A stretch of 64,000 nt of DNA from Haloarcula mannanilytica (GTDB lineage Archaea > Halobacteriota > Halobacteria > Halobacteriales > Haloarculaceae), in contig NZ_BIXZ01000001.1 in the NCBI RefSeq assembly GCF_005406125.1, positions 372,001-436,000 of the forward strand. The letters are read 5' to 3'. The notes beneath the pieces are model-generated. The model ran no database searches, was not told the origin of the DNA, and saw only the letters and a program-made list of their open reading frames with translations. The position numbers were made by a program, and so were the translations under genes. Shown one piece after another: positions 3,601 through 55,767 of the stretch (its first letter is position 1; every line of letters begins with the position of its first letter).

Positions 3601-3769
3601 AACCCGCTTTCTCCGGGTGAGTCAGTTACTCCGTCCCATCCTCTCGTCATACATTTCCGATTTGGGAGCGGGATTACTCAATTTGATATTGGTAGCGAAA
3701 GCAAATCGGTTATGCAAATGAGATTCTTGTTAAATTATCAGACAAAGAATTTATTCCAAATGGGTCGAG

Positions 3770-13549: not shown

Positions 13550-15577
13550 CTACGACGCCTCGCGGACCTCGTCCAATGCGTCGGGGTTCTCGATGCTGGA
13601 CATATCGCCCAGGTCCTCGCCGCGGTAGACGCCAGCGATGGCCCGACGGATGATTTTCCCGCTCTGTGTTTTGGGGAACTCGTCGACGAACAGCACCTCA
13701 CGGGGCCGGAACGGCTTGCCGAGTTCCTCGCCGACGGCGGCGCGGATGCCGTCCCGGAGGTCATCGGAGGGCTCGTAGCCGGGTTCGAGGACAGTGTAGA
13801 GAACGACGGCAGTGCCGGTGGTGTCGTCCGGCGCACCAACGGCGGCGGCCTGATTGACGGCTTCGTGTTCCATCGCCGCGCCCTCAACCTCCGCCGGGCC
13901 GACCTTCCGCCCGGCGACGTTGAGCACGTCGTCGGCCCGACCGTGGAGGAACCAGAGGCCGTCCTCGTCCTTTTGCGCCCAGTCGCCGTGGTCCCAGATG
14001 TCGTCCCAGGTCGACCAGTACTCTTCGAGGTAGCGTTCGTCGCCGCTCCACAGCGAGCGCGTCATCGACGGACAGGAGTCCCGGGCGACCAGATAACCGC
14101 GCTCGTGGGTGTCAGCAATCGAGTTTCCGTCCGAATCAACGATGTCGATATCCATCCCCAGGCCGGGGCCGCCGAGCGTGCACGGTTTGAGCGACTGAAT
14201 CGGCATCGGCATGAGAAAGCAGCCCATGATCTCGGTCCCGCCGGAGATGTTGATGATGGGACAGTCCCCGTTGCCGACGTTTTCATAGAACCACAGCCAA
14301 CTCTCGGGGTCCCAGGGTTCGCCGGTCGACCCGAGCAGTCGCAGGCTGGAGAGGTCGTGCCCCTCCAGCCACTCGTCGCCTTTCTTTCGCAGCGCCCGGA
14401 CGGCGGTCGGTGAGACGCCAAACGTAGTGAGGTCGTGGCGGTCGATCATCTTCCAGAAGCGGTCCGGCTCGGGATGGTCCGGCGCGCCCTCGTACATGAA
14501 CACGGTGCCGCCGAAGATGTGGTTCCCGAGCAGCGTCCAGGGACCCATCATCCAGCCGATGTCGCTCACCCAGAAGAAGCGGTCGCTGGGCTTGTGGTCG
14601 AAGCCGAAATAAATCTCCTTGGCGGCCTGCATGACCGCGCCCGCGTGGGTGTGGACGATGCCCTTCGGCTTCCCAGTCGTCCCGGAGGAGTACAGCAGCA
14701 TCGACTCCTGGTTGCTCGGGAGTTCCTTGGCGGCGTACTCGTCGTCGGCTGTTTCGATGGCGTCGTCCCACCACGAATCCTGGTCGGTCCACGAGATATC
14801 TGCGTCCGGGTCGTCAGCGGTTCCGAAGCGGTCGTAGACGACGGTGTGTTCGACCGGCGTCGTCCCGAGGTCTTCGCCGGCCTGTTCGATGGCCTCGTCG
14901 GCGCTGTCCTTGAGATGGACCTCGGAGCCGCGGCGGTAGAAGCCGTCGCCGGTGAACAGGACGGAACACTCCGCGTCGGCGATGCGGGTCGCCGTCGCGT
15001 CGACGCCGAACCCGGAGAAAATCGGCACGGCGATTGCGCCGACCTTGAGACAGCCGTACAGTATCGACGCGACCTCGGGGACCATCGGCATGTACAGGCC
15101 GACGGTGTCGCCGGTGTCGACGCCGACCGACTCCAGGTAGTTTGCCACTTTGCTGGCCTGGCGGTTCAGTTCGTGGTACGTGACCTCCCGCACGTCGCCG
15201 GGTTCACCCTCCCAGATGAGCGCTACTGTGTTCCGAGTGGGGCTGTCCCGCGCCGCGTGGCGGTCGAGAACATTGTGGGCGGCGTTGATGGTTCCCCCGG
15301 GGTACCAGTCGGTGAACTGCGGGCCGTCGCTAGTATTTCGGACCTCGTCGTACTCCTCGAAGAACTCGATGTCGAGGTACTCCGGGAGTACGTCCCAGAA
15401 CCACTCGACGCCGGATTCGGGTTCGTCTGGCACGTCGGTTGTCGTTCGCTCGATGAGTTCGTCGTAGTTGTCGATGTCATAGGTCTGCATGAACTCCCAG
15501 ACGTTCGTCGACTCGACGAACTCCTGGCTCGGTTCGTGGACGATGGTGTTGGTATCGGTGGGCTGTTGCTCGCTCAT
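13550..15577 (-). CDS. AMP-forming acyl-CoA synthetase (Acs/acetoacetyl-CoA-synthetase-like)
   Basis: ANL-superfamily ligase of 675 residues that activates a carboxylic acid with ATP and CoA. P-loop-like SSGTTGKPKGIVHTH, the hinge region LHGRADDVLNVAGRKVGPAEVE and the catalytic lysine in KTQSGKIIRRA are all present. The acyl-pocket motif reads ISGGTEIMGCF where true acetyl-CoA synthetases have WWQTETG, so acetate may not be the main substrate. Acetoacetyl-CoA synthetases have a similar SGGT stretch (from memory). The neighbour is a 3-hydroxybutyrate-dehydrogenase-like SDR, which would supply acetoacetate. ATG 15577 is used. A candidate operator lies 132 bp upstream. Confidence 0.88.
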   Translation of the reverse strand: MSEQQPTDTNTIVHEPSQEFVESTNVWEFMQTYDIDNYDELIERTTTDVPDEPESGVEWFWDVLPEYLDIEFFEEYDEVRNTSDGPQFTDWYPGGTINAAHNVLDRHAARDSPTRNTVALIWEGEPGDVREVTYHELNRQASKVANYLESVGVDTGDTVGLYMPMVPEVASILYGCLKVGAIAVPIFSGFGVDATATRIADAECSVLFTGDGFYRRGSEVHLKDSADEAIEQAGEDLGTTPVEHTVVYDRFGTADDPDADISWTDQDSWWDDAIETADDEYAAKELPSNQESMLLYSSGTTGKPKGIVHTHAGAVMQAAKEIYFGFDHKPSDRFFWVSDIGWMMGPWTLLGNHIFGGTVFMYEGAPDHPEPDRFWKMIDRHDLTTFGVSPTAVRALRKKGDEWLEGHDLSSLRLLGSTGEPWDPESWLWFYENVGNGDCPIINISGGTEIMGCFLMPMPIQSLKPCTLGGPGLGMDIDIVDSDGNSIADTHERGYLVARDSCPSMTRSLWSGDERYLEEYWSTWDDIWDHGDWAQKDEDGLWFLHGRADDVLNVAGRKVGPAEVEGAAMEHEAVNQAAAVGAPDDTTGTAVVLYTVLEPGYEPSDDLRDGIRAAVGEELGKPFRPREVLFVDEFPKTQSGKIIRRAIAGVYRGEDLGDMSSIENPDALDEVREAS

Positions 15578-15708
15578 AGGGCGTGTATCCTGTCGGGTGT
15601 TCGGAGGCCGGTACGACCACGTTCGGCGAATCGGCGTATGCTTTCCCTGTTCGGCCACCGCGGCAGCTCGGCCTCGCACAATATGTGTGGAGTGTTACTG
15701 CGGCTCAT

Positions 15709-15722
15709 GTTCACACGTAAAC
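15709..15722. promoter_or_regulatory. Candidate operator, site 1 (upstream of acyl-CoA synthetase)
   Basis: GTTCACACGTAAAC, imperfect dyad with half-sites GTTCAC and GTAAAC. It differs by one base from the reverse complement of site 3 at 16719. It lies 132 bp upstream of the acyl-CoA synthetase ATG and just past the SDR stop codon. The regulator that binds is inferred, not known. Confidence 0.55.
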
Positions 15723-15725
15723 TAC

Positions 15726-16595
15726 TCACTCGTAGGTCTTTGTCATTCCGCCGTCGAACAGCAGGTCGCCGCCGTTGAGATGGTCGGCGTGGCCGGAGAA
15801 CCCGAACACGAAGAGGTTCGCCACGTCGACGGGGTCCATCATCTCCTTGACGCGGGCCTGTCCCAGCATCACGTCGTCGATGACCTCGTCAACGCTGATA
15901 CCGCGCTGCTCGGCGGTATCGGGAATCTGGTCGACGACGAGCGGCGTCTTGACGTAGCCCGTGCTGATAGAGAACCCACGCAAGCCGTCGCCACCCTCGG
16001 CGGCGATAGACTGCGTCAGCCCCCGCAGGCCGAACTTCGAGACGTTGTAGGCCACCTTATCGGAGGTGACGTAATGGCCGTGGACCGACGCCATGTTCCC
16101 AATGGCACCCACCCCGTCGTCGGTCCCGCGGATGTGAGGGATGACCTGTTTTGAGAGCGCCAGCGGGGCGCGAAGCATTACGTCGTGCATCTGGTCGTAC
16201 TTCTCCATCGGGAAGTCCTCGATGGCGTCGATGTGCTGGAGGCCGGCGATGTTGGCGAGATACCGCACCGTGCCGTGGGACGCGGCCGTCTCGACGATGT
16301 GGTCGATGTCCGCGTCGCTGGCGAGGTCGCCGGCCACCGTCTCGACGGTCCCATCGAGGTCGAGGTCCGCTGCGGTCGTCTCGACCTCAGCGAGTCCGTC
16401 CTCGTCGATGTCCGTGGCGACGGCGGTCACCCCGTTTGCGGCCATCGCCAGCGCCGTCGCCCGGCCGATGCCCGACCCGCCGCCGGTCACCAAACAGACG
16501 GTGTCGTCGGTGTAGTGGTCGTCGTCGACGAACAGTATCGAGGACTCGTCGATGGGGGCGACTTCGAGCCGTTCGTGAGAGGTGCTGGATGCCAT
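15726..16595 (-). CDS. SDR-family dehydrogenase, 3-hydroxybutyrate dehydrogenase-like
   Basis: Classical short-chain dehydrogenase of 289 residues. The cofactor motif VTGGGSGIGRATA and the aspartate after strand 2 (ATDIDEDG) indicate NAD preference. NIAGLQHI is the structural NAG-like motif, and the catalytic set is Ser in GNMASVHGHYV, then Tyr and Lys in AYNVSKFG. The sequence from there (LRGLTQSIAAEGG, TGYVKTPLV) follows the 3-hydroxybutyrate dehydrogenase pattern, giving acetoacetate. It has a 45-residue N-terminal extension. It lies upstream of, and on the same strand as, the acyl-CoA synthetase, and diverges from the ABC operon. Confidence 0.85.
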   Translation of the reverse strand: MASSTSHERLEVAPIDESSILFVDDDHYTDDTVCLVTGGGSGIGRATALAMAANGVTAVATDIDEDGLAEVETTAADLDLDGTVETVAGDLASDADIDHIVETAASHGTVRYLANIAGLQHIDAIEDFPMEKYDQMHDVMLRAPLALSKQVIPHIRGTDDGVGAIGNMASVHGHYVTSDKVAYNVSKFGLRGLTQSIAAEGGDGLRGFSISTGYVKTPLVVDQIPDTAEQRGISVDEVIDDVMLGQARVKEMMDPVDVANLFVFGFSGHADHLNGGDLLFDGGMTKTYE

Positions 16596-16634
16596 TCAAT
16601 CACATGTTTTCTTGACACCGCCGAATAGGGGTGG

Positions 16635-16648
16635 GTTGACATGTATAC
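16635..16648. promoter_or_regulatory. Candidate operator, site 2 (SDR promoter)
   Basis: GTTGACATGTATAC, flanked by G and C that extend the dyad to 16 bp, around a perfect ACATGT centre. It is 40-53 bp upstream of the SDR start codon, almost the same distance as site 4 from the second binding-protein gene. It matches site 4 at 11 of 14 positions. Confidence 0.55.
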
Positions 16649-16718
16649 CCGACCGGCAGTGAGCGGGCATCGCAGTTCGGCTTGAGAGCCTTGATACGCA
16701 ACTCCGCCGACCCCCGTG

Positions 16719-16732
16719 GTTTACGTGTAAAC
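16719..16732. promoter_or_regulatory. Candidate operator, site 3 (upstream of ABC operon 1)
   Basis: GTTTACGTGTAAAC, with arms GTTTAC and GTAAAC around GT, extended to 7-bp arms by flanking G and C. It sits in the divergent gap between the SDR and the substrate-binding protein, 107 bp before the latter's ATG. Confidence 0.6.
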
Positions 16733-16838
16733 CTCCCGTTATTCCCTGGGTTGTGCGGTAGCCATACGCACCCCTGTGAACGCGGCACACGCTGTGGGCA
16801 GAGATGCCGGACGCCGCGTCCGGGACGGGGTGATACCT

Positions 16839-18191
16839 ATGGATTCAACGGCTACTTCGGACCATGACGCTGGTGGCATCGGCAGACGACAACTGCTCTC
16901 CGCGGTCGGCGGCTCGGCCGTCGCCGCGGCGCTTGCCGGCTGTTCGACCCTGCTGAGTGACGGCGAGTCAGCGGACCAGGGCGGACAGTCCGGCGACGGA
17001 ATCTCGGACGAACCGATACAGGCCGGGCTATTGACGTTTACTCGGGGCGCGCCGGGTGTCCTCGGTATCCAGGCCCAGCGCGGGGCCGAACTTGCCGTCC
17101 AGCGCATCAACGAACAGGGCGGTATCGGCGGGCAGCGCGAAATCGAACTGGACGTGGTCAACGAGGGGTCGAACGCGCTGGACAGCTACAACCAGTTCAT
17201 CGAGGAGGGAAAAGAAGTCACGTTCGGCCCGATCTCCAGTGGCACACACAGCCAGATTGCGCCCGAAGTCGAGAAAAACGAGGTCATCAACGTCGGCACC
17301 GACGGGACGGTGACGACGCTCTACGAGGAGACTGTCCCAGACCCGACCTACTCCTTCCGCTTCCAGAACTACGACATCATGGAGGTGGTGACGATGGCCC
17401 GGGAGGCCGTCGAGCGCATCGGGGCCGACAACATCTCGACCGTCGCCGGCGTCAACCCCGGCTACTCCTTCGGCGAGGACGAGATGCAGGTGTTCACGCA
17501 GGCGATTCAGCAGCTCACGGACGCCGAAATCGTCTACGAGGGGTTCCCGGAACTGGGCGCAAGCGACATGTCCAACCACATCACCTCGATCAACAACGAG
17601 GAGCCGGACGTGACCTTCTCCAGCCTGTGGGGCGGCGACGTGACGACGTTCGTCCGCCAGGCGAATGCGAACAACATGTTCGAGAACACGACGGTGTTCG
17701 GGACGACCCTCTACAGCGCGGCCGGCGACGTTCCCGGTGATGCCTTGGCCGGCACGGACATCTACTCGGGGTCCCGAAACTACTACTGGGGCTTGCCGGC
17801 GCTGGGCAACTGGCAGCCCGGCCGGGAGCTGTTCGACGCCGCGACACAGCAGGAGGGTGTGACAGTCCCGACAGCCCACTATATGAGCGGCTACGGTGCG
17901 GTCACCGCCTGGGCGACGGCCGTCGAGAAGGCCATCGACCTGCTGGGTACCTACCCCAGTCAAGAGCAGATTGCCCAAGTGCTGGAGGGGCACGGCTTCT
18001 TCACGCCGGCCGGCTACCACAACATGGCCGAGGACCACCAAGGCGCGTCGAACTCCTTTGCCGGCCAGATGGTGTACGACGACGACCTCGGCGCGGCCAG
18101 GCTCGACGACGTGAACACCTACGCGGCGACCGAGACCGCGCCGCCGCCGGGCGTCACCGGAAGCGACTGGCTGGAGAGCTGGAGCGCCTGA
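16839..18191 (+). CDS. Liv-type ABC transporter substrate-binding lipoprotein (module 1)
   Basis: Extracellular binding protein of 450 residues. The N-terminus has a twin-arginine motif (GRRQLLSAV, Arg 16-17) and a lipobox LAGC with Cys35, so it is exported folded and anchored by lipid, as is usual in haloarchaea. The mature part (IQAGLLTFTRGAPGVLGIQAQRG, AVQRINEQGGIGGQ) is a type I periplasmic-binding fold of the LivJ/LivK group. It heads a five-gene operon with permeases and ATPases. The neighbours are a CoA ligase and a hydroxyacid dehydrogenase, which suggests an organic acid rather than an amino acid as ligand; that is an inference. Confidence 0.9.
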   Translation: MDSTATSDHDAGGIGRRQLLSAVGGSAVAAALAGCSTLLSDGESADQGGQSGDGISDEPIQAGLLTFTRGAPGVLGIQAQRGAELAVQRINEQGGIGGQREIELDVVNEGSNALDSYNQFIEEGKEVTFGPISSGTHSQIAPEVEKNEVINVGTDGTVTTLYEETVPDPTYSFRFQNYDIMEVVTMAREAVERIGADNISTVAGVNPGYSFGEDEMQVFTQAIQQLTDAEIVYEGFPELGASDMSNHITSINNEEPDVTFSSLWGGDVTTFVRQANANNMFENTTVFGTTLYSAAGDVPGDALAGTDIYSGSRNYYWGLPALGNWQPGRELFDAATQQEGVTVPTAHYMSGYGAVTAWATAVEKAIDLLGTYPSQEQIAQVLEGHGFFTPAGYHNMAEDHQGASNSFAGQMVYDDDLGAARLDDVNTYAATETAPPPGVTGSDWLESWSA

Positions 18192-18200
18192 GACCGAGCC

Positions 18201-19145
18201 ATGGCCGTAACACCCACAGCCGCGCTCGTCCAGACGCTCAACGGCATCCAGTTCGGGTTCATCCTGTTCATGATCGCCTCGGGACTGACCGTCATCCTCG
18301 GCATCCTGGACGTGCTGAACCTCGCCCACGGGGAGCTGTTCTCCATCGGTGCCTACACCGCTATCGGCGTGTTCGGCTTCATTATCGGTGTCGTCGGCCC
18401 GCCGGGGGGCGGCATCGTCGGGACCGCCGTGTTCCTCTTCGCTGTCATCGCGGCCGTCCTCATCACGGCAGCCATCCTCCTTCCGGTCGGCACCGTTCTG
18501 GAGGCGGTGTTTCTCCGCCAGATATACGACCGCGACCAGGTGTACCAGCTCGTCCTGACGTTTGCCCTCCTGCTCATCCTGCTCGACGTGAAGAAGTTCA
18601 TCTGGGGGGATAGCTCGCTCCGGACCGACGCCGTCTACAGCGCCATCAACACCATCCCGACCAGCGAACTCGTCGGCCTGAACTACCCGACGTACAACGT
18701 GTTCGTCATCCTCGTCGGGATGGCCTCCGTCGTCGGTCTGTTCTGGTTCTTCGAACGGACCAAGACCGGCCGCATCATCCGAGCGACGGCTATCGACCGC
18801 GAGATGGCGACCGCCATCGGCGTCAGCACTGACCGCGTGTTCACGCTCGTGTTCGCGCTCGGGGCCTTCCTCGCCGGCTTCGCGGGCGCGATGGCCGTCC
18901 CACCCACTGCGGCGACCTTAGAGATGGGGACCAACCCGCTGGTGCTTTCCTTCGTTGTCATCGTCATCGGCGGCCTCGGTAGCCTCCGGGGTGCGTTCGT
19001 CGGGGCGCTTCTTGTCGGCGTCATCCGGAGCTGGATGATTACGCTGTACCCACCCGGTGAGATAGCGGCCCCGTTCGCCATCATGGCGCTCATCCTGCTG
19101 GTCAAGCCCGAGGGGCTGTTCGGGACGTGGGGTGAGACGGCGTGA
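18201..19145 (+). CDS. Liv-type ABC transporter permease (LivH-like, module 1)
   Basis: Inner permease of 314 residues with about eight hydrophobic segments. LivH hallmarks are visible: LDVLNLAHGELFSIGAY near the N-terminus, RATAIDREMATAIGVSTDRVF in the cytoplasmic loop that meets the ATPases, and VIVIGGLGSLRGAFVGALLVGV near the end. It starts 9 bp after the binding-protein stop and its own stop overlaps the next start. It forms the membrane channel with the LivM-like partner. Confidence 0.9.
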   Translation: MAVTPTAALVQTLNGIQFGFILFMIASGLTVILGILDVLNLAHGELFSIGAYTAIGVFGFIIGVVGPPGGGIVGTAVFLFAVIAAVLITAAILLPVGTVLEAVFLRQIYDRDQVYQLVLTFALLLILLDVKKFIWGDSSLRTDAVYSAINTIPTSELVGLNYPTYNVFVILVGMASVVGLFWFFERTKTGRIIRATAIDREMATAIGVSTDRVFTLVFALGAFLAGFAGAMAVPPTAATLEMGTNPLVLSFVVIVIGGLGSLRGAFVGALLVGVIRSWMITLYPPGEIAAPFAIMALILLVKPEGLFGTWGETA

Positions 19146-20293
19146 TGCCGAGGCGGACCGACCGCGACGGGACGCCGGCGTATCGGTTCCTCGGCGTAGA
19201 GGTGACCCGCCGGGAGGCCGTTTTCCTACTGGTCGGCGTCGTCGTCCTGTTCATCGTGCCGGACCTCACGACCGTCTCCGACAGCCTGCAACTGAGCGTC
19301 ATCCACCAGGGCCTCCTATTCGGTTTCGCGGCGGTCGGACTCAATCTATTGCTCCGGCACACGAAGCTCACCTCCTTTGGTCACGCGGCGTTCTTCGGCA
19401 CTGGCGCATACGCGACCGCAGTTCTGGCTCGCTATGCCGGCGTCCAGAGCGTCGGCCTGCTGTTGCTCGGCGCTATCGCAGCCGCGACGGTGATGGCCGC
19501 TATCATCGGCGTGCTGTCGCTGCGACACACGGGGCTGTACTTCGCCCTCTTGACGCTGGCCTTTGGCCAACTGCTGTACGCCATTGCGCTCGGACAAAGT
19601 GCACTCGGCGGGAGCGACGGGCTCCCCATCCGACCGGGACCGGCCAATCAGCCGCTCCTGTTCGGGACCGCGTTCAGTCCGGACGTGTACCAGGTGCTGA
19701 CGTACTACCTGACGGTCGTCGTCATCCTCATCGGCCTGTTCGTGATGTACCGCATCACGCAGTCGCCGTTCCGCAACGCCTTAGACGCCATCGGACAGGA
19801 GCGGACCCGGGCGCGGTTCATCGGTCTGCCGGTCCGCCGGTACGTCTGGGTCGCGTTCGTCATCTCAGGTATCTACGGTGGCGTCGCGGGCGGACTGTTC
19901 GCCGTCGTGCGCCAGTACATCCGCCCGGAGGAGACGCTGTTTTTCCTCCGGTCGGGCGACATCCTGTTCATGGCGATTCTGGGCGGGTTCCGGACGCTCG
20001 TTGGGCCGCTGCTCGGTGGTGTCGTCCTCGTCTTCCTGCAGGACGTGGGCCAAGATGTCACCCAGTACTACGACTTCCTCACCGGTGTGATACTCCTGAT
20101 ACTGGTGTATGGATTCCCGCGGGGCATCGTCGGTTCGCTGCAGTCCGGCGGCATCGTCAACACCCGCCTCGGGGAGCTACGCCGGGAGCCGTCCGTCCTG
20201 TCGACGTGGGGCCAAACAGCCGTCGAGACGACGGAGCGCAAGCTCGCCGAGTCGATGACCAGCCTGCGGATAATCCTCTTTGGAGCTGACTGA
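19145..20293 (+). CDS. Liv-type ABC transporter permease (LivM-like, module 1)
   Basis: Second permease, 382 residues. LivM signatures are GLNLLLRHTKLTSFGHAAFFGTGAYA, GVLSLRHTGLYFALLTLAFGQLLYA, and FRNALDAIGQERTRARFIGL in the EAA-type loop. ATG 19145 overlaps the preceding stop as TGATG; a GTG three bases earlier is an alternative. After the last membrane helix there is a cytoplasmic tail of about 45 residues (GELRREPSVLSTWGQ to the end). It pairs with the LivH-like subunit. Confidence 0.9.
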   Translation: MPRRTDRDGTPAYRFLGVEVTRREAVFLLVGVVVLFIVPDLTTVSDSLQLSVIHQGLLFGFAAVGLNLLLRHTKLTSFGHAAFFGTGAYATAVLARYAGVQSVGLLLLGAIAAATVMAAIIGVLSLRHTGLYFALLTLAFGQLLYAIALGQSALGGSDGLPIRPGPANQPLLFGTAFSPDVYQVLTYYLTVVVILIGLFVMYRITQSPFRNALDAIGQERTRARFIGLPVRRYVWVAFVISGIYGGVAGGLFAVVRQYIRPEETLFFLRSGDILFMAILGGFRTLVGPLLGGVVLVFLQDVGQDVTQYYDFLTGVILLILVYGFPRGIVGSLQSGGIVNTRLGELRREPSVLSTWGQTAVETTERKLAESMTSLRIILFGAD

Positions 20294-20294
20294 G

Positions 20295-21050
20295 ATGCTC
20301 GAAGCACGCAACCTACGCAAGTCCTTCGGTGAACTGGTCGCGACTGACGACATCACACTTGAGTTCGGCAAAGACGAGGGCGAACTCGTCTTCATCGTCG
20401 GCCCGAACGGGGCCGGCAAGACGACGTTCATAAACCTGCTGACCGGTTTCCTCTCGCCAGACGAGGGCGAAATCGTCCTCGACGGCGAGGACATCACCGG
20501 CATGTCGGCCGACAGCCGCGTCGACGCCGGTATTGCCCGGAGCTTCCAGGTCGTCAAGGTGTTCGAGGAGATGACCGTCCGGGAGAACCTCCGGACGGTG
20601 GTCCTCACTGAGCAGGGCAAGACCTGGAGCCTGTTCTCGATGGCCGACGGCCACGAGGACGTGGAAACGAAAGTGGAGGAACTGCTGGCGAGGTTCCGGC
20701 TGGAAGACGCCGCCGACACCATCGCCGAGGAACTCCCCCACGGCGACCGGAAACTGCTCGACGTGGCGATGTCCTTCGGCCTCGATCCCGAGTACCTCCT
20801 GCTTGACGAACCCACATCCGGCGTCTCGACCCGCGAGAAAGAGTACGTCATCGAGACGATTGTCGAGGTCGGTCGGGCCGAGGGCGTCACGACGGTCACC
20901 ATCGAACACGACATGGACATCGTTACCGAGTACGCCGACCGCGTCGTGGCGCTGCACCAGGGAGCCGTTCACGGGGTCGGTCCGCCGACGATGCTCGAAA
21001 CCGACGACGAACTCCGGCGGCTCCTCCTGGGGGTGGGAGACGATGAGTAG
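20295..21050 (+). CDS. Liv-type ABC transporter ATP-binding protein (LivG-like, module 1)
   Basis: ABC ATPase of 251 residues. Walker A is GPNGAGKTTF and Walker B is YLLLDEPTSG, followed by IEHDMDIV with the switch histidine. The signature loop reads LPHGDRKLLDVAMS, where most ABC proteins have LSGGQ; LivG subunits often carry such a variant. RSFQVVKVFEEMTVREN is the LivG-type Q-loop. The start at 20295 lies one base after the preceding stop. Confidence 0.9.
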   Translation: MLEARNLRKSFGELVATDDITLEFGKDEGELVFIVGPNGAGKTTFINLLTGFLSPDEGEIVLDGEDITGMSADSRVDAGIARSFQVVKVFEEMTVRENLRTVVLTEQGKTWSLFSMADGHEDVETKVEELLARFRLEDAADTIAEELPHGDRKLLDVAMSFGLDPEYLLLDEPTSGVSTREKEYVIETIVEVGRAEGVTTVTIEHDMDIVTEYADRVVALHQGAVHGVGPPTMLETDDELRRLLLGVGDDE

Positions 21051-21780
21051 CGAACCCCTGCTGTCGGTTCGCGGCCTCAGCGCCGCCGTCGAGGGGTTCC
21101 AGGTGACCGAGGACATCGACCTCGACGTGACCGCCGGGGAGGCGGTCGGGCTGGTCGGACGCAATGGCGCGGGCAAGACGACCACCTTCCGCGGCATCAT
21201 GGGCCTGACGCCGGTCTGGAGCGGGTCGGTCAAATTTCGCGGCGAGGAACTGACCGACATCCGCTCGGAGCTGATTCCCAAGCGGGGCATCGGCTACCAG
21301 CCCGAAGACCGGAAGCTGTTCACCGGGATGACCGTCGACGAGAACTTCCGGCTCCCAATCTGGACCAGCGGAAAGGCCCGCGGTATCGACGACGAGGACG
21401 CGGTCATCGAGAGCGTCTACGACGTGCTGACCGAACTTGACGACCGCCGGGACGCGAAGGTCCAGAACCTCAGCGGCGGCCAAGCGAAGATGGTCGCCAT
21501 CGGCCGGGCGCTCGCGCTCCAGCCCGACCTGCTCATCCTCGATGAACCGCTGGAGGGGCTGGCCCCCGTCGTCGTCGAGAGCCTCAAACGCTACATCCGG
21601 GCCATCAACGACCGCGACATCGCAGTGCTCATCGCCGAGTCCAACGTCACGCACGTCCCAGAGGTCGTCGACCGCCTCTACGTCATCGAGCGCGGCGATA
21701 TCGTCGCCAGCGGCGACCCGGAGGAACTGGCAGCCGACGAAGACATCCAGAAGCTGATGCAAGGCAGCGGGACGGAGTAA
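21043..21780 (+). CDS. Liv-type ABC transporter ATP-binding protein (LivF-like, module 1)
   Basis: ABC ATPase of 245 residues, partner of LivG. Walker A GRNGAGKTTT, Q-loop GIGYQPEDRKLFTGMTVDEN, signature LSGGQAKMVAIGRALA and Walker B LLILDEPLEGLAP are complete. It starts inside the end of livG with an 8-bp overlap, indicating translational coupling. The convergent regulator gene ends 25 bp beyond its stop. Confidence 0.9.
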   Translation: MSSEPLLSVRGLSAAVEGFQVTEDIDLDVTAGEAVGLVGRNGAGKTTTFRGIMGLTPVWSGSVKFRGEELTDIRSELIPKRGIGYQPEDRKLFTGMTVDENFRLPIWTSGKARGIDDEDAVIESVYDVLTELDDRRDAKVQNLSGGQAKMVAIGRALALQPDLLILDEPLEGLAPVVVESLKRYIRAINDRDIAVLIAESNVTHVPEVVDRLYVIERGDIVASGDPEELAADEDIQKLMQGSGTE

Positions 21781-21805
21781 AGACAACGCAGCGCCAGATC
21801 GAGTC

Positions 21806-22510
21806 TCACTCGGTCACATCGTTCATCGCCGTCGTAACGCGGTCGAGAATTTTGCGCTGGCTGCGCCGGAGGTTCTTCGAGATTGCCATCTTCGACACGT
21901 CGAACTCCTCGGCGAGCGACGACAGAGTCTCGTCCCGGGGCGTGTCGAAGTAGCCGCCTTCGACGGCTTTCTCCAGCGTGTCCCGCTCCACCTCTGAGAG
22001 TTCTCGGCACCCGTCGACCAGCCGCTTCGCCGAGTCGATGTTCTGCAGCAGGTCGTAGTAATCCTCCAAGTCGACCGATTCTCGGGACCGGATGGTGTAG
22101 TCGTTGTCCCGTTCCAGTTCCGACAGCGTTCCATCGGCGACCCGCTCGGTGTCGAAGCCGACGTGCCAGATTTCCGAACCGTCACGGATGCGGAACGGTC
22201 CGGTGATGTAGCCGCTGTGGTCGCGGATGACGTTCATCGCGTTCGTCTCGTCGATGCGCGAGCGGATGAGCGCCAAGTCGCCCTTCCGACGGAGGAGCTG
22301 ATAGGACTCCATGTGGTCGTGGGCTTCGAGCGCGTTCAGCCCGCGGTCCAGTTCTTCTCGGTCCGCACCGTTGACCATGATTCGCGTCTCAAGCTCCCGC
22401 TCGACGGGGTGGAAATCCCACTGCTTGGCCAGAAACGACACCTCGTAGTCCCGTGTCGTGTCGATGTACGGACAGTCGTACTGGACCATATCCATCTCGA
22501 GCGAGATCAT
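21806..22510 (-). CDS. Bat-type helix-turn-helix transcriptional regulator (paralogue A)
   Basis: Regulator of 234 residues. The C-terminal 60 residues hold the haloarchaeal Bat-type HTH (LSEVERDTLEKAVEGGYFDT, then LSSLAEEFDVSKMAISKNLRR). The N-terminal domain (MDMVQYDCPYIDTTRDYEVSFLAKQWDF) is not a PAS or GAF domain I can name and may sense a ligand. A full-length paralogue of identical length lies at 56620-57324, and both share the QYDCP-IDTT and GGYITGPF/SGYITGPF blocks. It is convergent with ABC operon 1 and is the best candidate for binding the nearby dyads. Confidence 0.87.
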   Translation of the reverse strand: MISLEMDMVQYDCPYIDTTRDYEVSFLAKQWDFHPVERELETRIMVNGADREELDRGLNALEAHDHMESYQLLRRKGDLALIRSRIDETNAMNVIRDHSGYITGPFRIRDGSEIWHVGFDTERVADGTLSELERDNDYTIRSRESVDLEDYYDLLQNIDSAKRLVDGCRELSEVERDTLEKAVEGGYFDTPRDETLSSLAEEFDVSKMAISKNLRRSQRKILDRVTTAMNDVTE

Positions 22511-22618: not shown

Positions 22619-23203
22619 ATGTACGTCCGGGATGCGAAAAACCGAGAGGAGGTCTGGCTGCTGGACCGTATCGAGGAGATGGGGCTGGACGAGACAGCCT
22701 TCAGGTCCCGGGACTACGTCGTCGCTATCGACGAGGAGAGCCACGAGAAGGCCGGATTCGGCCGCATCCGTATCCACAAGGGCGACGAGGAGTCCGTCTG
22801 TGAACTCACGAGCATCGGTGTCCTGCCGGAGTGGCGCAATCAGGGCGTCGGCGCTCACGTCATCGAGCGACTGGTCGAGTACGCCGGCGACGAGGGGTTC
22901 GACACCGTCTACTCGCTGACGAACGCCGCGGAGTACCTCGCGCAGTTCGGGTTCGAGCCGATTGAGCCGGCGCAGTTGCCCGACTCGCTCCGGGACCGGC
23001 TGGCTACCAAACAGGAGAACATCCAGCCCGACGCGGTGCCGCTCCGGGTGGCCGTCGACCGCTTTCAGGTGCCCGGGCACCTCCGAAGTCGGTTCAAGCA
23101 GGCCAGTGCCGGCGAACCCGAGGACCCCGAGCCGGAAGAGGGGCCCGAGGACTTCGGGATCGACCCCGATGAAGCGACCTACAAGTACGATACGGGCGAC
23201 TAA
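22619..23203 (+). CDS. GNAT-family N-acetyltransferase
   Basis: Acetyltransferase of 194 residues. The core is in the first 120 residues: VVAIDEESHEKAGFGRIRIH, then CELTSIGVLPEWRNQGVGAHVIERLVEYA, which contains the acetyl-CoA pyrophosphate loop RNQGVG, and LTNAAEYLAQFGFEPI. The last 70 residues are acidic and halophile-specific (EPEDPEPEEGPEDFG). The acceptor is unknown. It overlaps the stop of the convergent FKBP gene by 4 bp. Confidence 0.85.
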   Translation: MYVRDAKNREEVWLLDRIEEMGLDETAFRSRDYVVAIDEESHEKAGFGRIRIHKGDEESVCELTSIGVLPEWRNQGVGAHVIERLVEYAGDEGFDTVYSLTNAAEYLAQFGFEPIEPAQLPDSLRDRLATKQENIQPDAVPLRVAVDRFQVPGHLRSRFKQASAGEPEDPEPEEGPEDFGIDPDEATYKYDTGD

Positions 23204-23679: not shown

Positions 23680-23778
23680 ACTTCCCCATAGCTGGTGACG
23701 ATATAAACCCACCTCGGAACGGCGCGCCACTGCGTCTACGAGGGACGGAATATTAAAAACCGTGAAGGATTTGGGAAC

Positions 23779-23785
23779 CCTTAAG
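23779..23785 (+). promoter_or_regulatory. TATA-like box of the mutase gene
   Basis: CCTTAAG about 27 bp upstream of the ATG at 23810, at leaderless distance. A second A/T stretch (AATATTAAAAA) lies about 30 bp further upstream. Confidence 0.4.
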
Positions 23786-23809
23786 CCTCCGCCGTCCGAG
23801 GGTCCGTCC

Positions 23810-25492
23810 ATGTTTGACCCCGACGAGCTGGCGCAGATACGGGAGTCGAAGGCTCAGTGGGAGGAAGACGATGTCCAGCCCACCGTCGACCGCTTTGGCG
23901 AGCGCAAGGAGACGTTCACCACGGACACCGAGGGACACGAGGTAGATCGACTGTACACGCCCGCAGATGTCGCTGATCTGGACTACGAGGAAGACCTGGG
24001 CTTTCCCGGTCAGGAACCGTACACCCGCGGGGTGTACCCGACCGGCTATCGGGGTCGCCTCTGGACGATGCGCCAGTACGCCGGAATGGGGACCGCGACG
24101 GAGACAAACGAGCGCTTCAATTACCTGCTCGACCAGGGCCAGACCGGGCTCTCGATGGCGTTTGACCTCCCGACGCAGATGGGCTACGACTCCGACCACG
24201 CGATGGCCGCCGGTGAAGTTGGGAAGACCGGCGTCGCCATCGACTCGCTAGACGACATGGAGACCGTCTTCGACGGCATCCCGCTAGACGAGGTGTCGAC
24301 GAGCATGACCATCAACGCCCCCGCGTCGGTGCTGCTAGCGATGTACATCGCCGTCGGCGACAAGCAGGGCGTCGACCGCGAGGAACTCCGCGGGACCATC
24401 CAGAACGACGTACTGAAGGAGTACATCGCCCGGAACACGTTCATCTACCCGCCGGAGCCGTCGATGCGGCTCATCACCGACATCTTCGAGTTCTGCGCCG
24501 CCGAAACACCGAGTTTCAACACTATTTCCATCTCGGGCTATCACATCCGCGAGGCCGGCTCGACGGCCGCCCAGGAAATCGCCTTCACGCTCGGCGACGG
24601 CATCGAGTACGTCGAGGCTGCCATCGAAGCCGGTCTTGATGTCGACGAGTTCGCCCCGCAGCTATCCTTCTTTTTCGCCTCCTACAACAACATCTTCGAG
24701 GAGGTGGCGAAGTTCCGTGCGGCTCGCCGCCTCTGGGCGAAGATCATGGACGAGCGCTTCGACGCCAACAACCCCAAGTCCAAACAGTTGAAGTTCCACA
24801 CGCAGACCGCCGGGTCGACGCTGACCGCCCAGCAGATCGAGAACAACGTCGTTCGCGTATCTTATCAGGCGCTCGCTGCGGTCCTGGGTGGGACCCAGAG
24901 CCTCCACACGAACGGCAAGGACGAGGCCATCGGCCTGCCGACCGAGCAGTCCGTCCGGACCGCACTGCGGACCCAGCAGATACTCGCCCACGAGTCGGGG
25001 GCCGCAGACACAATTGACCCGCTGGCCGGCAGCTACTACGTCGAGTCGCTGACCGACGAACTCGAAGCCGAGGCCCGCGAACTCATCGAGGAGGTCGACG
25101 AACGCGGCGGGATGCGCCGCTCCATCGAGGAGCAGTGGGTCCAGCGCCAGATTCAGGACGTGGCCTTCGAGCGCCAGCGCGAACAGGAAGACGGCGAGCG
25201 CATCATTGTCGGCGTCAACGAGTACCAGGTCGAAGAGGAGGGCGAGCAGGACATCGAGGAAGTCGACGAAGCAGTCGAGCAGGCACAGAAAGACAATGTC
25301 GCGACAGTCCGAGAGGAACGCGACGACGAGGAAGTCGAGGCGAGACTCGACGCGCTTCGGGGGGCTGCTGAGGGCGACGAGAACATCATGCCCTATATCA
25401 TCGACGCCGTGAAGGTGTACGCCACGACCGGCGAGGTGTGTGACGTGCTCCGGGACGTGTTCGGGGAGTACCAGCCCGGATCGTCGATGTGA
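23810..25492 (+). CDS. Methylmalonyl-CoA mutase large (catalytic) subunit
   Basis: Catalytic subunit of 560 residues that interconverts methylmalonyl-CoA and succinyl-CoA using adenosylcobalamin. Typical motifs are [60 protein letters not shown] and the CoA-binding [14 protein letters not shown] region. The B12-binding domain with DxHxxG is absent, so a separate small subunit encoded elsewhere must supply it, as in other archaea. The epimerase follows 83 bp later. Together they serve propionyl-CoA and branched-chain acid breakdown and, in some Haloarcula, the methylaspartate cycle. Confidence 0.95.
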
Positions 25493-25552: not shown

Positions 25553-25575
25553 GCCGGCCCGATGTACCATCTCCC

Positions 25576-25965
25576 ATGAAATTCGACCACGCCGGCATCG
25601 CCACCGACGACGCCGACCCGCTCGCGGAACTGTTCGCAGACGCCTTCGGGGCGCCGGTCGTTCACGAGGAGACGTTCGACAGCCTGCAGGTGACGTTTCT
25701 GGACATGGGTAACGGCTACTTCGAACTGTTAGAGCCGCTGCCCGACGCTGATGGGGCGATCCCCAGGTACCTCGACAGCAACGGGCCGGGTATTCATCAC
25801 GTCGCCCTGGAAACCGACGACATCGCGGCCGCGCTAGAAGCGGTCAGCGACTGCGGGATCGACTTGATAGACGAGGAACCGCGGCCGGGCGCGTGGGGCC
25901 ACGACGTGGCGTTTCTGCATCCGAAGACGACCGGCGGCGTACTCGTGGAGTTAGTCGAACACTGA
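25576..25965 (+). CDS. mce: Methylmalonyl-CoA epimerase
   Basis: VOC-fold (glyoxalase-like) metalloenzyme of 129 residues that converts the S and R forms of methylmalonyl-CoA. FDHAGIATDDADPLAELF begins the first beta-alpha-beta unit with its histidine ligand. NGYFELLEPL gives a glutamate ligand, GIHHVALETDDI begins the second unit, and LHPKTTGGVLVELVEH ends it. The length and the position next to the mutase fit. ATG 25576 is chosen because homology starts there. Confidence 0.92.
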   Translation: MKFDHAGIATDDADPLAELFADAFGAPVVHEETFDSLQVTFLDMGNGYFELLEPLPDADGAIPRYLDSNGPGIHHVALETDDIAAALEAVSDCGIDLIDEEPRPGAWGHDVAFLHPKTTGGVLVELVEH

Positions 25966-38555: not shown

Positions 38556-40397
38556 ATGAGTAGCCGCGTGGAGCCGCCGGGACACCTGGGCGGCCTTGAC
38601 CTCGCTGATAGATGTAACACTCCCGTCTTAGCGGACCTCCTGGAAGAGCGCGACCTCCTCGGCCACGGCCAGTTGCTCGACGGAACACTGACGGAACGTG
38701 ACGAAGACCGCGTACGCATTGCGAAGTTCATTGCGGCGCATCCGGAAGGTACGCCGCTGTCTCATGTTGTTTCGTACGCTGTGAAGGGAGTCTCGCCGGA
38801 GACGTGCGAGCGCGTCGACGGTTCGGACCCGGATTACCAGTTTGCATACCGCTTCATCGACGACCTCGTAGCCGATGACGACCCGTACGTCCGGAAATCC
38901 CGGTCGTCAGGCGTTCTTTTCGTGACCCCGACACTGCGGCTTCTTGACTTGATTACAGAAGGCATTACTCAAACAACCCAGACAGACGGTATAACGTACG
39001 ACCGCGAGTTTCTGCGTAATTACCTCTCTCGTGTCGATTCTGTAGACGATGACCTGCGCGAGTTACTGAAGGACGGTTTTACATCCTACCTGAACCGCAT
39101 CAAGGATTACAAACTGCTGTTCGATGTTCACTTCGTCGACCGGCGCGGCGGCGAATCCACACAGCGGATGACGAAGGATTACAAGACCCGCTTCAACGAC
39201 CAAGGCCGCGTCTCGAAGCAGTTCGCACGATTCAATGATGCGCTGGAATACGGCTACGAGAACGCCAATAATGCCGTTTTGGTGACGCTGACGACCGACC
39301 CGAAGCGCCAAGATTCGCTGCTCGACGGGATCGACTCGATAAACGAGAACTTCAACCGGCTGTTGTCGTATTTCGATTCGGACCCGTCGACTAAAGCCGA
39401 TACCCGCGACCCAGATGTTCCCGGTTGGCGTCCCGATCTCGATAGCGAGGTGACTGGGCGACCTCGTGACCGACCGGACTACATCAAGGCGCTGGAGTTT
39501 ACTGAGAAAGGATACCCGCACCTGCACGTGCTGTTTTTCGACGTGCCGATACGCGCATCCGATGGCCTCCCGTGGCTGTGCGACAAACCGGAAGTGGCCG
39601 CTAAATGGGCCGACTACGGCCAAGGCGAGATTGTCGACGTGTACCCGCTGACGTACCGCGACGACCTCGACGACCTGGAACCAGAGTTCCAGAGTGACGA
39701 GGGCTTCGTCGACTGGTACAGGTTCGGCGACCACGATCACGGTGAGCAGTGGGTTCGAGAACGAACCCGCTCGCACGAGTTGATCGAGTTCGGCGACGAC
39801 GGCCGCGAAATGGAGTCGACGGCTGGCGCGTATCTTGGGAAGTACCTGAGCGCGACGTTCGGCTCGCTGCTCGACGCGACGGAGTCCTTCGAGGCGTCCG
39901 ACGACGAACGAGAGTCGTACGTGGACAAAGCGGCGACGTGGAAGCTCGCGCTGTACTGGGCGACGAACCGGCGCTTCTGGTCTTGCTCGGAGTCGATTAC
40001 AGAAGGAATCGACCCGAACGACCACCTGCAAGATCCGGACGTGCGCGAAGCCGTACGCTGGTGTTCGCTCGACTCAGTACAAACTGCGAGCGAATCCGAG
40101 ATACGCGACAGCCTCGCGCGTCAGCAGTGGGACGACCTCGACAATCTCGACGCTGCTGTAGAGAGGGCGGTTTCAGACGTGGAACAGCCGCAGGTACGTT
40201 CAACGCTGCCAGAAGAAGCCTCTTTCCGGTGTGTTGTTGACTACATCGGTGCGTATGCATACTGGGATCTTCCGAGCAGCGAGGTAGCTGATAGTTCTCA
40301 AAACCTCGAAACTGCTGAGATCTATATTGTGGATACCGATGGTTTGCCGGATATCAACCGTGAAAAAGACCCACCGATTATCGACATCTGGAAGTGA
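38556..40397 (+). CDS. HUH-superfamily replication initiator (rolling-circle Rep)
   Basis: Protein of 613 residues. Three rolling-circle motifs are visible in order: VLVTLTTDP near residue 243 (motif 1), the metal-binding HUH in PHLHVLFFD with His322 and His324 (motif 2), and AYLGKYLSATFG at 426-430 (motif 3). Motif 3 has two tyrosines spaced by three residues, the arrangement of two-tyrosine initiators. It is related to Rep proteins of haloarchaeal plasmids and pleolipoviruses. Homology-like sequence starts at ATG 38556; the frame is open back to 38295 but that part is low-complexity. It would nick the origin in the preceding gap. Confidence 0.83.
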   Translation: MSSRVEPPGHLGGLDLADRCNTPVLADLLEERDLLGHGQLLDGTLTERDEDRVRIAKFIAAHPEGTPLSHVVSYAVKGVSPETCERVDGSDPDYQFAYRFIDDLVADDDPYVRKSRSSGVLFVTPTLRLLDLITEGITQTTQTDGITYDREFLRNYLSRVDSVDDDLRELLKDGFTSYLNRIKDYKLLFDVHFVDRRGGESTQRMTKDYKTRFNDQGRVSKQFARFNDALEYGYENANNAVLVTLTTDPKRQDSLLDGIDSINENFNRLLSYFDSDPSTKADTRDPDVPGWRPDLDSEVTGRPRDRPDYIKALEFTEKGYPHLHVLFFDVPIRASDGLPWLCDKPEVAAKWADYGQGEIVDVYPLTYRDDLDDLEPEFQSDEGFVDWYRFGDHDHGEQWVRERTRSHELIEFGDDGREMESTAGAYLGKYLSATFGSLLDATESFEASDDERESYVDKAATWKLALYWATNRRFWSCSESITEGIDPNDHLQDPDVREAVRWCSLDSVQTASESEIRDSLARQQWDDLDNLDAAVERAVSDVEQPQVRSTLPEEASFRCVVDYIGAYAYWDLPSSEVADSSQNLETAEIYIVDTDGLPDINREKDPPIIDIWK

Positions 40398-40442
40398 TTG
40401 TAGGACATATGTTTTAACTCCTGAGAGATGTAGACTATAGTA

Positions 40443-41105
40443 ATGAGTTCCGAGATCATTTTTAATTACAAGACCGCTAACATCGGTAGTTCTGGCAATG
40501 TTGGACACGAGAGGTTAGAAGATGAAACAGTAGCAAAGGCTAAATGTCCATTCTGTGACCATATATCCTCATTTCGTCAGGTAGGAAGAGGGAACAGATC
40601 AAGATTAAAAGGCCAAATGGTCGCCTTGAAGTGTCCTAATTGTGGTTGTATTATATCTGCATCTATAGATGAAGAAGAAATATTCCCCAAACCAAAAGTT
40701 GAAGATTTTGGAGAAGATCTACCGGATAATATCCAAGATTACTACGATGAAGGAGTCCGTTGTTTGGGTGCAGACGCCCCAAATGGTGCAGCAACAGTTT
40801 TCAGGAAAGTGATTCATGCAGTGTGTATGTATTATGATATTACTGAAGCTGATTCAAATGATGGGTTTTATGATATGATTCAAACACTCTCTGATGAAGA
40901 AATAATCACGGAATCACTCCGTCAAAGCCTTCTCGGTGTAAAAGATGCGGGAAATGATGGTGCTCATATTAATAATAACGACCCAACATTAGACCAAGCT
41001 AAGAACATGAAAGAAATGATTGAGGCTGTCCTTACAGCGACAGTAGTTGCTGATGAAAAAGTCAATAAACTACGTGAAGAACATCCAAATCCACATCAAG
41101 AATAG
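40443..41105 (+). CDS. DUF4145 domain protein with N-terminal zinc ribbon (cargo gene)
   Basis: Protein of 220 residues. The N-terminal 75 residues carry CPFC and CPNCG zinc pairs. The C-terminal DUF4145 domain shows NGAATVFRKVIHAVCMYYDI and LRQSLLGVKDAGNDGAH. DUF4145 often occurs near or inside restriction and other defence proteins, but no such partner is present here. Its codons are markedly A/T-rich compared with the Rep and integrase genes, so it was probably acquired from a different host. Its role is unknown. Confidence 0.8.
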   Translation: MSSEIIFNYKTANIGSSGNVGHERLEDETVAKAKCPFCDHISSFRQVGRGNRSRLKGQMVALKCPNCGCIISASIDEEEIFPKPKVEDFGEDLPDNIQDYYDEGVRCLGADAPNGAATVFRKVIHAVCMYYDITEADSNDGFYDMIQTLSDEEIITESLRQSLLGVKDAGNDGAHINNNDPTLDQAKNMKEMIEAVLTATVVADEKVNKLREEHPNPHQE

Positions 41106-41183
41106 AATCTGAATGAATTAGTTGATAAGAAATTATTAAAAAAGGAAATCAGTCGACTGCTATATCAGAAGATCGTCGAACGT

Positions 41184-41379
41184 GTTCCCGATGTGAAACC
41201 GATCAAGTCCCCGATGAAAGAGTGAACCCGGCGCTTCGGATCGAGTCTGTAGAGTGCTCGGTGAGCGAGTCCCCGATGTGAAACCGACGACCGAGTCCCC
41301 GATGGGAGAACGGAACAAGTGAAACAGAGCGACCGCCGAACGAGTCCCCGATGTGCTGGCGGCGACTGAGTCCCCGACA
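41184..41379. repeat. Six-copy iteron-like repeat GTCCCCGATG
   Basis: Core copies begin at 41184, 41207, 41269, 41295, 41344 and 41370. The first reads GTTCCCGATG, the last GTCCCCGACA, the others GTCCCCGATG, mostly preceded by GA. They form three pairs with inner spacings of 23, 26 and 26 bp, all in the same orientation. The first copy of each pair is followed by TG and, in two cases, AAACCGA. They lie immediately downstream of the winged-helix gene's stop. They look like iterons or an operator array. Confidence 0.75.
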
Positions 41380-41389
41380 GGAGAGCGAA

Positions 41390-41608
41390 TTACTCGTTGT
41401 CGTCTGAAACCCACCAGACCCAGCTACGTCCGGCCTGTTTTCCGTTAATGCGCCCTTCGGTTCGCAGTTCTTTCAGTCGTATCTGTGTTGCATTGGATTT
41501 GATCGGGAGTTGATCGACGACTTCGTTTGTGGACAGAACGGGATCTGAAGCCTGTTCTAAAACAGCGATGATTTCTTCGTCAGTCACGTCCGGTTTTCGG
41601 CCCGCCAT
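41390..41608 (-). CDS. Small winged helix-turn-helix protein
   Basis: DNA-binding protein of 72 residues. TDEEIIAVLEQASDPVLSTNEVVDQL, then SNATQIRLKELRTEGRINGKQAG and RSWVWWV form a compact winged helix of the MarR/DUF-type small regulators found on haloarchaeal plasmids. The promoter is probably in the AT-rich 41620-41690 stretch. The repeat array begins right after its stop, so it may bind there as a copy-number or element regulator; that is an inference. Confidence 0.78.
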   Translation of the reverse strand: MAGRKPDVTDEEIIAVLEQASDPVLSTNEVVDQLPIKSNATQIRLKELRTEGRINGKQAGRSWVWWVSDDNE

Positions 41609-42095
41609 TGTACCGCATATCGGTTGTGTACGCCAAATAAACTCTGGTCCATCGTATTATTATGATTAGACACATAACAAGTACAGAAACCATTATTGTG
41701 CTTTGGCAGAAGAAGTAGTTACGGAGGTCACCCGGACTGCTGCAACAGTTCGGAAAATGCGGACCCGGTGCTGCAACACCGGCCCGCTGTGGCTTCCGTG
41801 ACCATCCCACGGAAGCATGTTAGCAGACACAACCGCGAGGATTAAACCCCTCGCTCGACCCCACCGGAGGTTGTCCGGTAGATGTATTAGCTTCTCAAGA
41901 GTGGATTCAGAAAGGCGGATAAACGCAGTAATCAGTGGGCCTAGCCCCACGGTTTCACTTTCACCCCACCGAGACGGCCCGGTTTATACCAGGATTCAGC
42001 AGTCACAAGTGGATGACTGCCCCGTCAAATCTGAAATCGGATTCGCTCGTCCGCCGTCGAATCAGAACCGGATGCCCCGTCCGAGGGGGACACCG
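41609..42095. other. Non-coding region between wHTH gene and integrase
   Basis: 487 bp. The first 80 bp are A/T-rich and likely hold the wHTH promoter. Three perfect hairpins follow (41765-41782, 41792-41816 and ACCGG/CCGGT near 41867-41883). The integrase frame is open upstream to 41817 without family-like sequence. No other gene supported; a structured RNA or the right-end recombination accessory sites are possible. Confidence 0.45.
41765..41816. repeat. Two adjacent perfect stem-loops
   Basis: CCGGTG-CTGCAA-CACCGG at 41765-41782 and GCTTCCGTG-ACCATCC-CACGGAAGC at 41792-41816 are separated by 9 bp. The arms are perfect (6 and 9 bp). No T run follows, so a plain terminator is unlikely. Confidence 0.6.
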
Positions 42096-54131: not shown

Positions 54132-54171
54132 AACAGATAATCGTATATTCGCTACCTCCATAGTGTACTGA

Positions 54172-54185
54172 GTTAACATGTTAAC
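54172..54185. promoter_or_regulatory. Candidate operator, site 4 (upstream of ABC operon 2)
   Basis: GTTAACATGTTAAC, a perfect 14-bp palindrome, 41-54 bp upstream of ATG 54131. It fits the same pattern (GTTNACRYGTWWAC) as the three sites in module 1. Confidence 0.65.
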
Positions 54186-55590: not shown

Positions 55591-55767
55591 GAGAGACGCA
55601 TCCTGTATCTTGTACCGCTCTGCAAATATGGTATGAAACTACCACGATCCCAAGTAGTCAATTCGAACATATGTGTCCTGCTGTTTCACGGTACGGCAGG
55701 ACGTGGGGCGGCCGTCTCGTTTCGACAGTTTTAGCGGGAGTTCTTTGGTCGGCGGAATCGAAATGTA

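Follow-up and report, generated by a model that had tools for sequence, protein, structure and literature searches.

Gene content of the locus

The 64,000-nt stretch of the Haloarcula mannanilytica genome analysed here (hereafter the window; the genome is a 4.2-Mb assembly, 99.97% complete) carries a group of genes that we regard, with high confidence, as a co-regulated module for the uptake and catabolism of an organic acid. The group comprises an Acs-like AMP-forming acyl-CoA ligase (LIG), a short-chain dehydrogenase/reductase (SDR), a complete Liv-type ABC transporter with its substrate-binding protein (SBP) and a transcription regulator of the HTH_10 type (Table 1). The SDR gene is directly upstream of LIG on the same strand, this pair diverges from the SBP-LivHMGF genes, and the HTH_10 gene opposes the end of the transporter cassette. 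Beyond the regulator lie genes for a GNAT acetyltransferase, an FKBP-type isomerase, the methylmalonyl-CoA mutase large subunit (MCM) and methylmalonyl-CoA epimerase (MCE). The family of every module gene was confirmed with Pfam and NCBIfam. A first-pass annotation, made from the sequence alone, had described an SDR upstream of a ligase with the motif ISGGTEIMG, both divergent from a full Liv transporter, and all these genes were found where it had placed them.

The same locus is present in named Haloarcula species, with binding-protein identity of 85–96%. Translation of LIG likely starts at an ATG; the longest open reading frame extends to a GTG at 15679, and in its numbering the ISGGTEIMG motif stands at residue 478. 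Our literature searches found no paper on this gene module.

Table 1. Features of the module and its surroundings (positions in the window)
Feature	Position	Strand	Family or evidence
LIG, Acs-like AMP-forming acyl-CoA ligase, AacS-type acyl pocket	13550–15577	−	PF00501, PF13193, PF16177
SDR, 3-hydroxybutyrate dehydrogenase (BdhA) group	15726–16595	−	best NCBIfam model TIGR01963; best PDB matches; active-site residues
Operator copy 1, GGTTGACATGTATACC	16634–16649	+	kept in seven aligned Haloarcula species; one of two genome matches
Operator copy 2, GGTTTACGTGTAAACC	16718–16733	+	84 bp from copy 1; kept in seven aligned Haloarcula species
SBP, substrate-binding Tat lipoprotein, HAAT family	16839–18191	+	PF13458; Tat RR and lipobox LAGC
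LivH-type permease	18201–19145	+	PF02653
LivM-type permease	19142–20293	+	PF02653
LivG-type ATPase	20295–21050	+	PF00005
LivF-type ATPase	21043–21780	+	PF00005
HTH_10 (HVO_2525_N) transcription regulator, likely module regulator	21806–22510	−	PF04967, PF24279
GNAT acetyltransferase, conserved LIG neighbour, outside the transporter module	22619–23203	+	neighbourhood survey
MCM, syntenic with LIG	23762–25492	+	PF01642; TIGR00641 above cut-off
MCE	25567–25965	+	TIGR03081, 140.6 bits (cut-off 114.95)

Recurrence of the module in haloarchaea

When 391 haloarchaeal genomes were searched across the class, 42 of them, from 17 genera, proved to encode an orthologue of the binding protein. We read the gene neighbourhoods of haloarchaeal loci (designated below by L numbers) and, for the 33 loci with an orthologous binding protein outside Haloarcula, counted genes within ~10 kb of it. 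The SDR was present at 24 of these loci, LIG at 17 and an HTH_10 gene at 28; another AMP ligase replaces LIG at five (four MbcS-type, one FadD-type), and 29 have the SDR or a ligase. The SDR-positive loci come from 14 genera and four families, and adjacency of an SDR by chance is expected at ~1% per locus if a genome has about two SDR copies.

The order of the genes differs from lineage to lineage. L193 is arranged as MCE-MCM-GNAT / LIG-SBP-LivHMGF-SDR, L198–L201 as SDR / HTH10 / Liv-SBP-LIG, and L203–L217 mostly as SBP-LivHMGF / HTH10 / SDR-LIG; in L133 all module genes are on one strand, and in L129 and L130 the SDR diverges from SBP. Pairs of SDR and LIG also occur without a transporter, in one genus (g13) and on a Natronorubrum plasmid (HTH10 / SDR-LIG). 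The reshuffling of gene order with retention of the neighbours suggests functional linkage, with the loci not being phylogenetically independent.

Paired palindromes and the HTH_10 regulator

In an alignment of the SDR/SBP intergenic DNA of seven Haloarcula species, two 16-bp palindromes are kept amid diverged sequence; the folding of this intergenic DNA showed nothing remarkable (z −0.84). Both matches of the pattern GGTTKACRTGTAWACC in the 4.2-Mb genome fall in the promoter region of the SDR and the transporter, and a genome-wide search allowing one mismatch gave no further match. Scanned for the related pattern GGTTNACRTGTNNACC, 32 Haloarcula genomes gave a pair 82–85 bp apart at this locus in 13 of the genomes that carry the module; one other (G106) has a single copy there. 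Among the remaining Haloarcula genomes matches occur in two alone, at one site each (G112 and G435), and no pair is seen in G112 or in the other Haloarcula genomes lacking the binding protein.

Genera from which the motif had not been derived were scanned at a threshold of at least 14 of 16 positions. Here 26 of the 34 sites fall within 300 bp upstream of a binding-protein, SDR or ligase gene, and these upstream regions make up 4% of the scanned sequence (enrichment p ~1e-30, phylogeny not corrected). The sites track the module genes through changes of gene order and are also found next to the SDR gene where SDR and HTH10 pair up with no transporter nearby (L136–L138); many Natrialbaceae loci are without the motif at this threshold. 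The regulator belongs to the bacterio-opsin-activator-like HTH_10 proteins, with a C-terminal PF04967 helix-turn-helix, and is a natural candidate for binding the palindromes, with which it is probably paired. An exact copy of the palindrome at 3614–3629 of L195 lies near an apparent second Liv operon, possibly an extra member of the regulon.

The dehydrogenase

The best curated model for the SDR is TIGR01963 (3-hydroxybutyrate dehydrogenase), with 201 bits for a cut-off of 307; since the cut-off is missed, we assign the protein to a haloarchaeal BdhA-like group only. The closest solved structures in PDB are 3-hydroxybutyrate (3HB) dehydrogenases. No module SDR departs from the P. fragi enzyme at Q94, S142, H144, K152, Y155, K159 or Q196 (P. 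fragi numbering), residues to which we ascribe catalysis or binding of the carboxylate; W187 is replaced by Y, as in the Thermus and Deinococcus enzymes. Two generic SDRs located beside bacterial ligases with the SGGT motif, used as negative controls, fail at Q94, H144, K152, W187 and Q196. Judged by its active site, the module SDR is plausibly of the (R)-3-hydroxybutyrate dehydrogenase type. Bacterial SDRs upstream of SGGT ligases (Marinovum, Nitratireductor) were considered as a parallel and rejected; they lack the 3HB-dehydrogenase residues.

Related SDRs of other haloarchaea adjoin a patatin gene. One of them, in Haloferax mediterranei, is in the same group as the SDR of the window (63.7% identity) and matches the putative BdhA of the published phaZh1-bdhA cluster (PMC11205408). 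On the SDR tree the Liv label needs two changes, because the SDRs of L130 and L135 belong to the other branch. A homologous SDR at L148 (G070:C357) is accompanied by two FadD-type ligases, a PRK06840-type 3-oxoacyl synthase, an enoyl-CoA hydratase, a PAS sensor and an HTH_10 gene; this group is another acyl-CoA cluster.

The ligase

LIG scores below all NCBIfam equivalog cut-offs: 582 bits against 725 for acetate, 354 against 521 for acetoacetate and 355 against 827 for propionate. Compared with acetyl-CoA synthetase (Acs) of S. enterica, its acyl pocket carries the changes V310M, T311M, V386T and W414G, and the motif SGGTEI.GCFL stands where Acs and the propionate enzyme PrpE have WWQTETG or YWQTESG. 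With neither of these motifs present and the curated cut-offs missed, LIG is a member of neither AcsA nor PrpE. A change of Trp to Gly at the W414 position can open Acs-type enzymes to larger acids. SGGT(E/D), together with a small residue at Acs W414, is common to LIG and the reference sequences of acetoacetyl-CoA synthetase (AacS), to which LIG is ~27–30% identical. A branch with 100/100 support in a maximum-likelihood tree groups LIG on the side of AacS, away from Acs, PrpE and MbcS; LIG makes up a separate clade outside that of AacS, which itself sits on a long branch. These features suggest that LIG plausibly works like AacS without belonging to TIGR01217. No CoA-transferase of family PF01144 was found in the 99.97% complete genome, so a ligase or another route would be needed for the acetoacetate that the SDR produces.

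The lysine motif PKTQSGKI is retained in LIG. At 25 of ~40 loci a GNAT acetyltransferase gene lies beside LIG, a pairing that resembles the bacterial acuA-acsA control through lysine acetylation (PMC11255334). A second ligase paralogue, 67–69% identical, is found on plasmid pHsi540 of Haloarcula sinaiiensis (L165, 8079–10079), between genes for a PaaI thioesterase and F420-/succinate-semialdehyde dehydrogenase (SSADH)-type proteins, with an IclR regulator.

The transporter and its binding protein

The transporter has the composition of a HAAT (Liv-type) system, with a PF13458 binding protein, two BPD_transp_2 permeases and two ABC ATPases, and automated annotation names the permeases as branched-chain amino acid permeases. 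An ordinary branched-chain amino acid transporter with incidental neighbours would explain this architecture; we consider such a transporter very unlikely. Its neighbours, namely the SDR, ligase, regulator and operator, recur across genera in differing orders, and the binding protein scores 35 bits against the NCBIfam Liv model, whose cut-off is 477. The twin-arginine and the lipobox cysteine are invariant among the orthologues. In place of the LivJ amino-group ligands Y202 and E226, each of the 22 orthologues in a remote alignment to E. coli LivJ/LivK appears to have W and G, the E226 region being the less certain of the two. The protein is thus not placed in LivJ/LivK, and its annotation for branched-chain amino acids is probably wrong; the first-pass annotation had said that such a label would be misleading if the transporter imports an organic acid, and the apparent change of the amino-group ligands speaks for its view.

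In a survey of relatives of this binding protein, bacterial proteins 27–29% identical to it, encoded beside gamma-hydroxybutyrate genes, were found to share with it the motif SSxWGGD and an Asp at LivJ position 100. The gene for the relative on R. johnstonii pRL10 adjoins genes for a lactonase, an iron-containing alcohol dehydrogenase (Fe-ADH), SSADH and IclR; that of S. meliloti adjoins Fe-ADH, metallo-beta-lactamase-type (MBL) hydrolase and SSADH genes; that of M. extorquens adjoins Fe-ADH, SSADH and IclR genes, near phaZ and a phasin gene; and a Thermus relative adjoins AMP ligase, alcohol dehydrogenase and SSADH genes. Some relatives have no gamma-hydroxybutyrate context. It could be argued from these neighbours and from the common WGGD signature that the haloarchaeal transporter takes up a different hydroxy acid, for instance 4-hydroxybutyrate or one derived from gamma-butyrolactone, as the bacterial relatives probably do. 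We find this rather improbable: in the surroundings of the haloarchaeal orthologues no homologue of Fe-ADH, SSADH or the lactonase was seen, their partner enzyme is an SDR of the 3HB-dehydrogenase type, and the identity to the bacterial binding proteins is low.

Two further Liv-type systems were observed. The window contains a second HAAT-type binding-protein gene (52857–53963, minus strand), with binding residues unlike those of LivJ and unlike the WGGD type. A paralogous Liv system with 39% binding-protein identity lies beside hydantoinase A/B genes (L181 and L219, Halalkalicoccus plasmid), which suggests that this system handles another non-amino-acid substrate.

Proposed function

The interpretation that we favour, and consider fairly probable, is a regulated module for scavenging short 3-hydroxy acids, 3-hydroxybutyrate in the first place and probably 3-hydroxyvalerate (3HV) too; that one of these two acids is the actual substrate is, in our estimate, similarly likely. 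The lipoprotein would capture the acid and LivHMGF would import it; NAD+-dependent oxidation by the SDR would then give the 3-oxo acid (acetoacetate or 3-oxovalerate), and LIG would convert this product into 3-oxoacyl-CoA at the expense of ATP. A thiolase encoded elsewhere would cleave the thioester to acetyl-CoA plus acetyl- or propionyl-CoA, and propionyl-CoA would pass on to the mutase and epimerase encoded nearby. Control is probably exerted by the HTH_10 protein at the two palindromes that lie between the divergent operons. The earlier proposal was that a short acid is taken up and activated, perhaps 3-hydroxybutyrate or acetoacetate. As far as comparative sequence analysis goes, this proposal finds support in the multi-genus module, the SDR residues, the AacS-type pocket, the lack of PF01144 and the module-specific operator.

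Several observations weigh against this interpretation. The SDR falls below the TIGR01963 cut-off, and LIG, at 354 bits for a cut-off of 520.9, is not a member of TIGR01217. The binding-site comparison with LivJ is remote, as said above, and an AlphaFold2 model of the binding protein, made from eight sequences, had a pLDDT of 37. At four transporter loci the ligase is of the MbcS type and the SDR is missing, so which acid is transported may depend on the lineage. LIG is nearly universal: of 194 haloarchaeal genomes sampled, 169 (~87%) encode it. It is absent from 11 of the 12 genomes that lack MCM versus 14 of the 182 others, and SDR homologues persist in several genomes without LIG.

The tie between LIG and MCM is also seen in gene order: in many genera without the transporter LIG is divergent beside GNAT-MCM, often with MCE. 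The co-loss of LIG and MCM is significant (Fisher p 1.8e-10 in 194 Halobacteria genomes, phylogeny not corrected), with the losses confined to a few genera. This tie, which the first-pass annotation did not consider, along with the persistence of the SDR without LIG, implies a role of LIG beyond 3HB that is linked to propionyl-CoA. It also broadens the range of acids to be considered: 3-hydroxyvalerate (C5) or others that yield propionyl-CoA may be additional substrates. Haloarchaea are known to produce PHBV, a copolymer of 3HB and 3HV (PMC4823750). Conversion of 3HV to acetyl-CoA and propionyl-CoA by way of the SDR and LIG would reconcile the SDR link with the MCM link.

The main competing explanation is that the substrate of LIG is propionate or a short branched acid (isobutyrate, 2-methylbutyrate), from which propionyl-CoA is fed to the mutase and epimerase; the same acid would enter by the transporter, with the SDR as a side activity. 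This explanation draws on the arrangement of LIG divergent from GNAT-MCM(-MCE) in transporter-less genera and on the co-loss with MCM, and also on L193, where LIG, transporter and SDR are beside MCM-MCE, on a Natrinema plasmid that groups MCM, another AMP ligase and a related Liv system, and on the MbcS-type ligases that stand in for LIG at some loci. We judge it unlikely. LIG has no WWQTE/YWQTE pocket of Acs and PrpE and is on the AacS side of the tree, and the recurrent partnership with a 3HB-dehydrogenase-type SDR (24 of 33 loci) would be left unexplained; because the PrpE pocket is absent, a propionate-only role of LIG is not preferred. The plasmid in question, from Natrinema caseinilyticum (L187), also has a B12-binding subunit gene in this group, a possible parallel module for a propionyl-CoA-yielding acid.

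More tentatively, and with somewhat more doubt than conviction, we extend the scavenging of 3-hydroxy acids to a class-wide haloarchaeal regulon, in which HTH_10 and a dedicated paired palindrome would govern high-affinity uptake of the PHBV monomers 3HB and 3HV by a so far unassigned subfamily of HAAT systems with 'WGGD' binding proteins, and this uptake would be coupled to a new family of 3-oxo-acid-activating ligases evolutionarily tied to MCM. If true, haloarchaea would scavenge 3-hydroxyalkanoates from the bioplastic granules of lysed neighbours, a carbon flow in hypersaline waters masked by present annotations. A substrate class would then be given to an unassigned subfamily of Liv-type transporters and a likely role to a ligase of most sampled haloarchaeal genomes, and the specific operator would make the proposed regulator directly testable.

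Apart from the module, the window has two dips in G+C content, at 40001–42000 (0.48) and 54001–56000 (0.50), compared with ~0.64; these could be inserted DNA.

Comparison with known systems

The bacterial BdhA plus AacS route (e.g. hbdH/aacS of P. putida, PMC13390443) is similar in having a 3HB dehydrogenase-type SDR and an AMP-forming ligase with the SGGT pocket that gives acetoacetyl-CoA. The haloarchaeal system differs from it in the ligase, which is a separate clade below TIGR01217, in the Liv-type ABC uptake and in the archaeal HTH_10 regulator. With the phaZh1-bdhA cluster of H. mediterranei (PMC11205408) the module has a homologous SDR in common; that cluster serves intracellular depolymerisation of polyhydroxyalkanoate by the patatin PhaZh1, whereas here the SDR is paired with an importer and a ligase.

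The closest bacterial context that we found is that of the Liv systems beside gamma-hydroxybutyrate genes (R. johnstonii pRL10, S. meliloti pC and M. extorquens p1METDI), which have the SSxWGGD binding protein, a full Liv cassette and adjoining genes for hydroxy-acid oxidation, but carry Fe-ADH and SSADH in place of the SDR and ligase, with a lactonase in two and IclR in two. The first-pass annotation had pointed instead to the Cou and Hba systems of Rhodopseudomonas. These do have a Liv transporter beside a CoA ligase, as here, but their substrates are aromatic and they are not known to include a 3HB dehydrogenase, and they are not the nearest relatives found in this work. The chemistry of the proposed pathway is already known; what is new is that a Liv-type importer is joined here to an unassigned clade of ligases and to an archaeal regulator that has its own paired operator.

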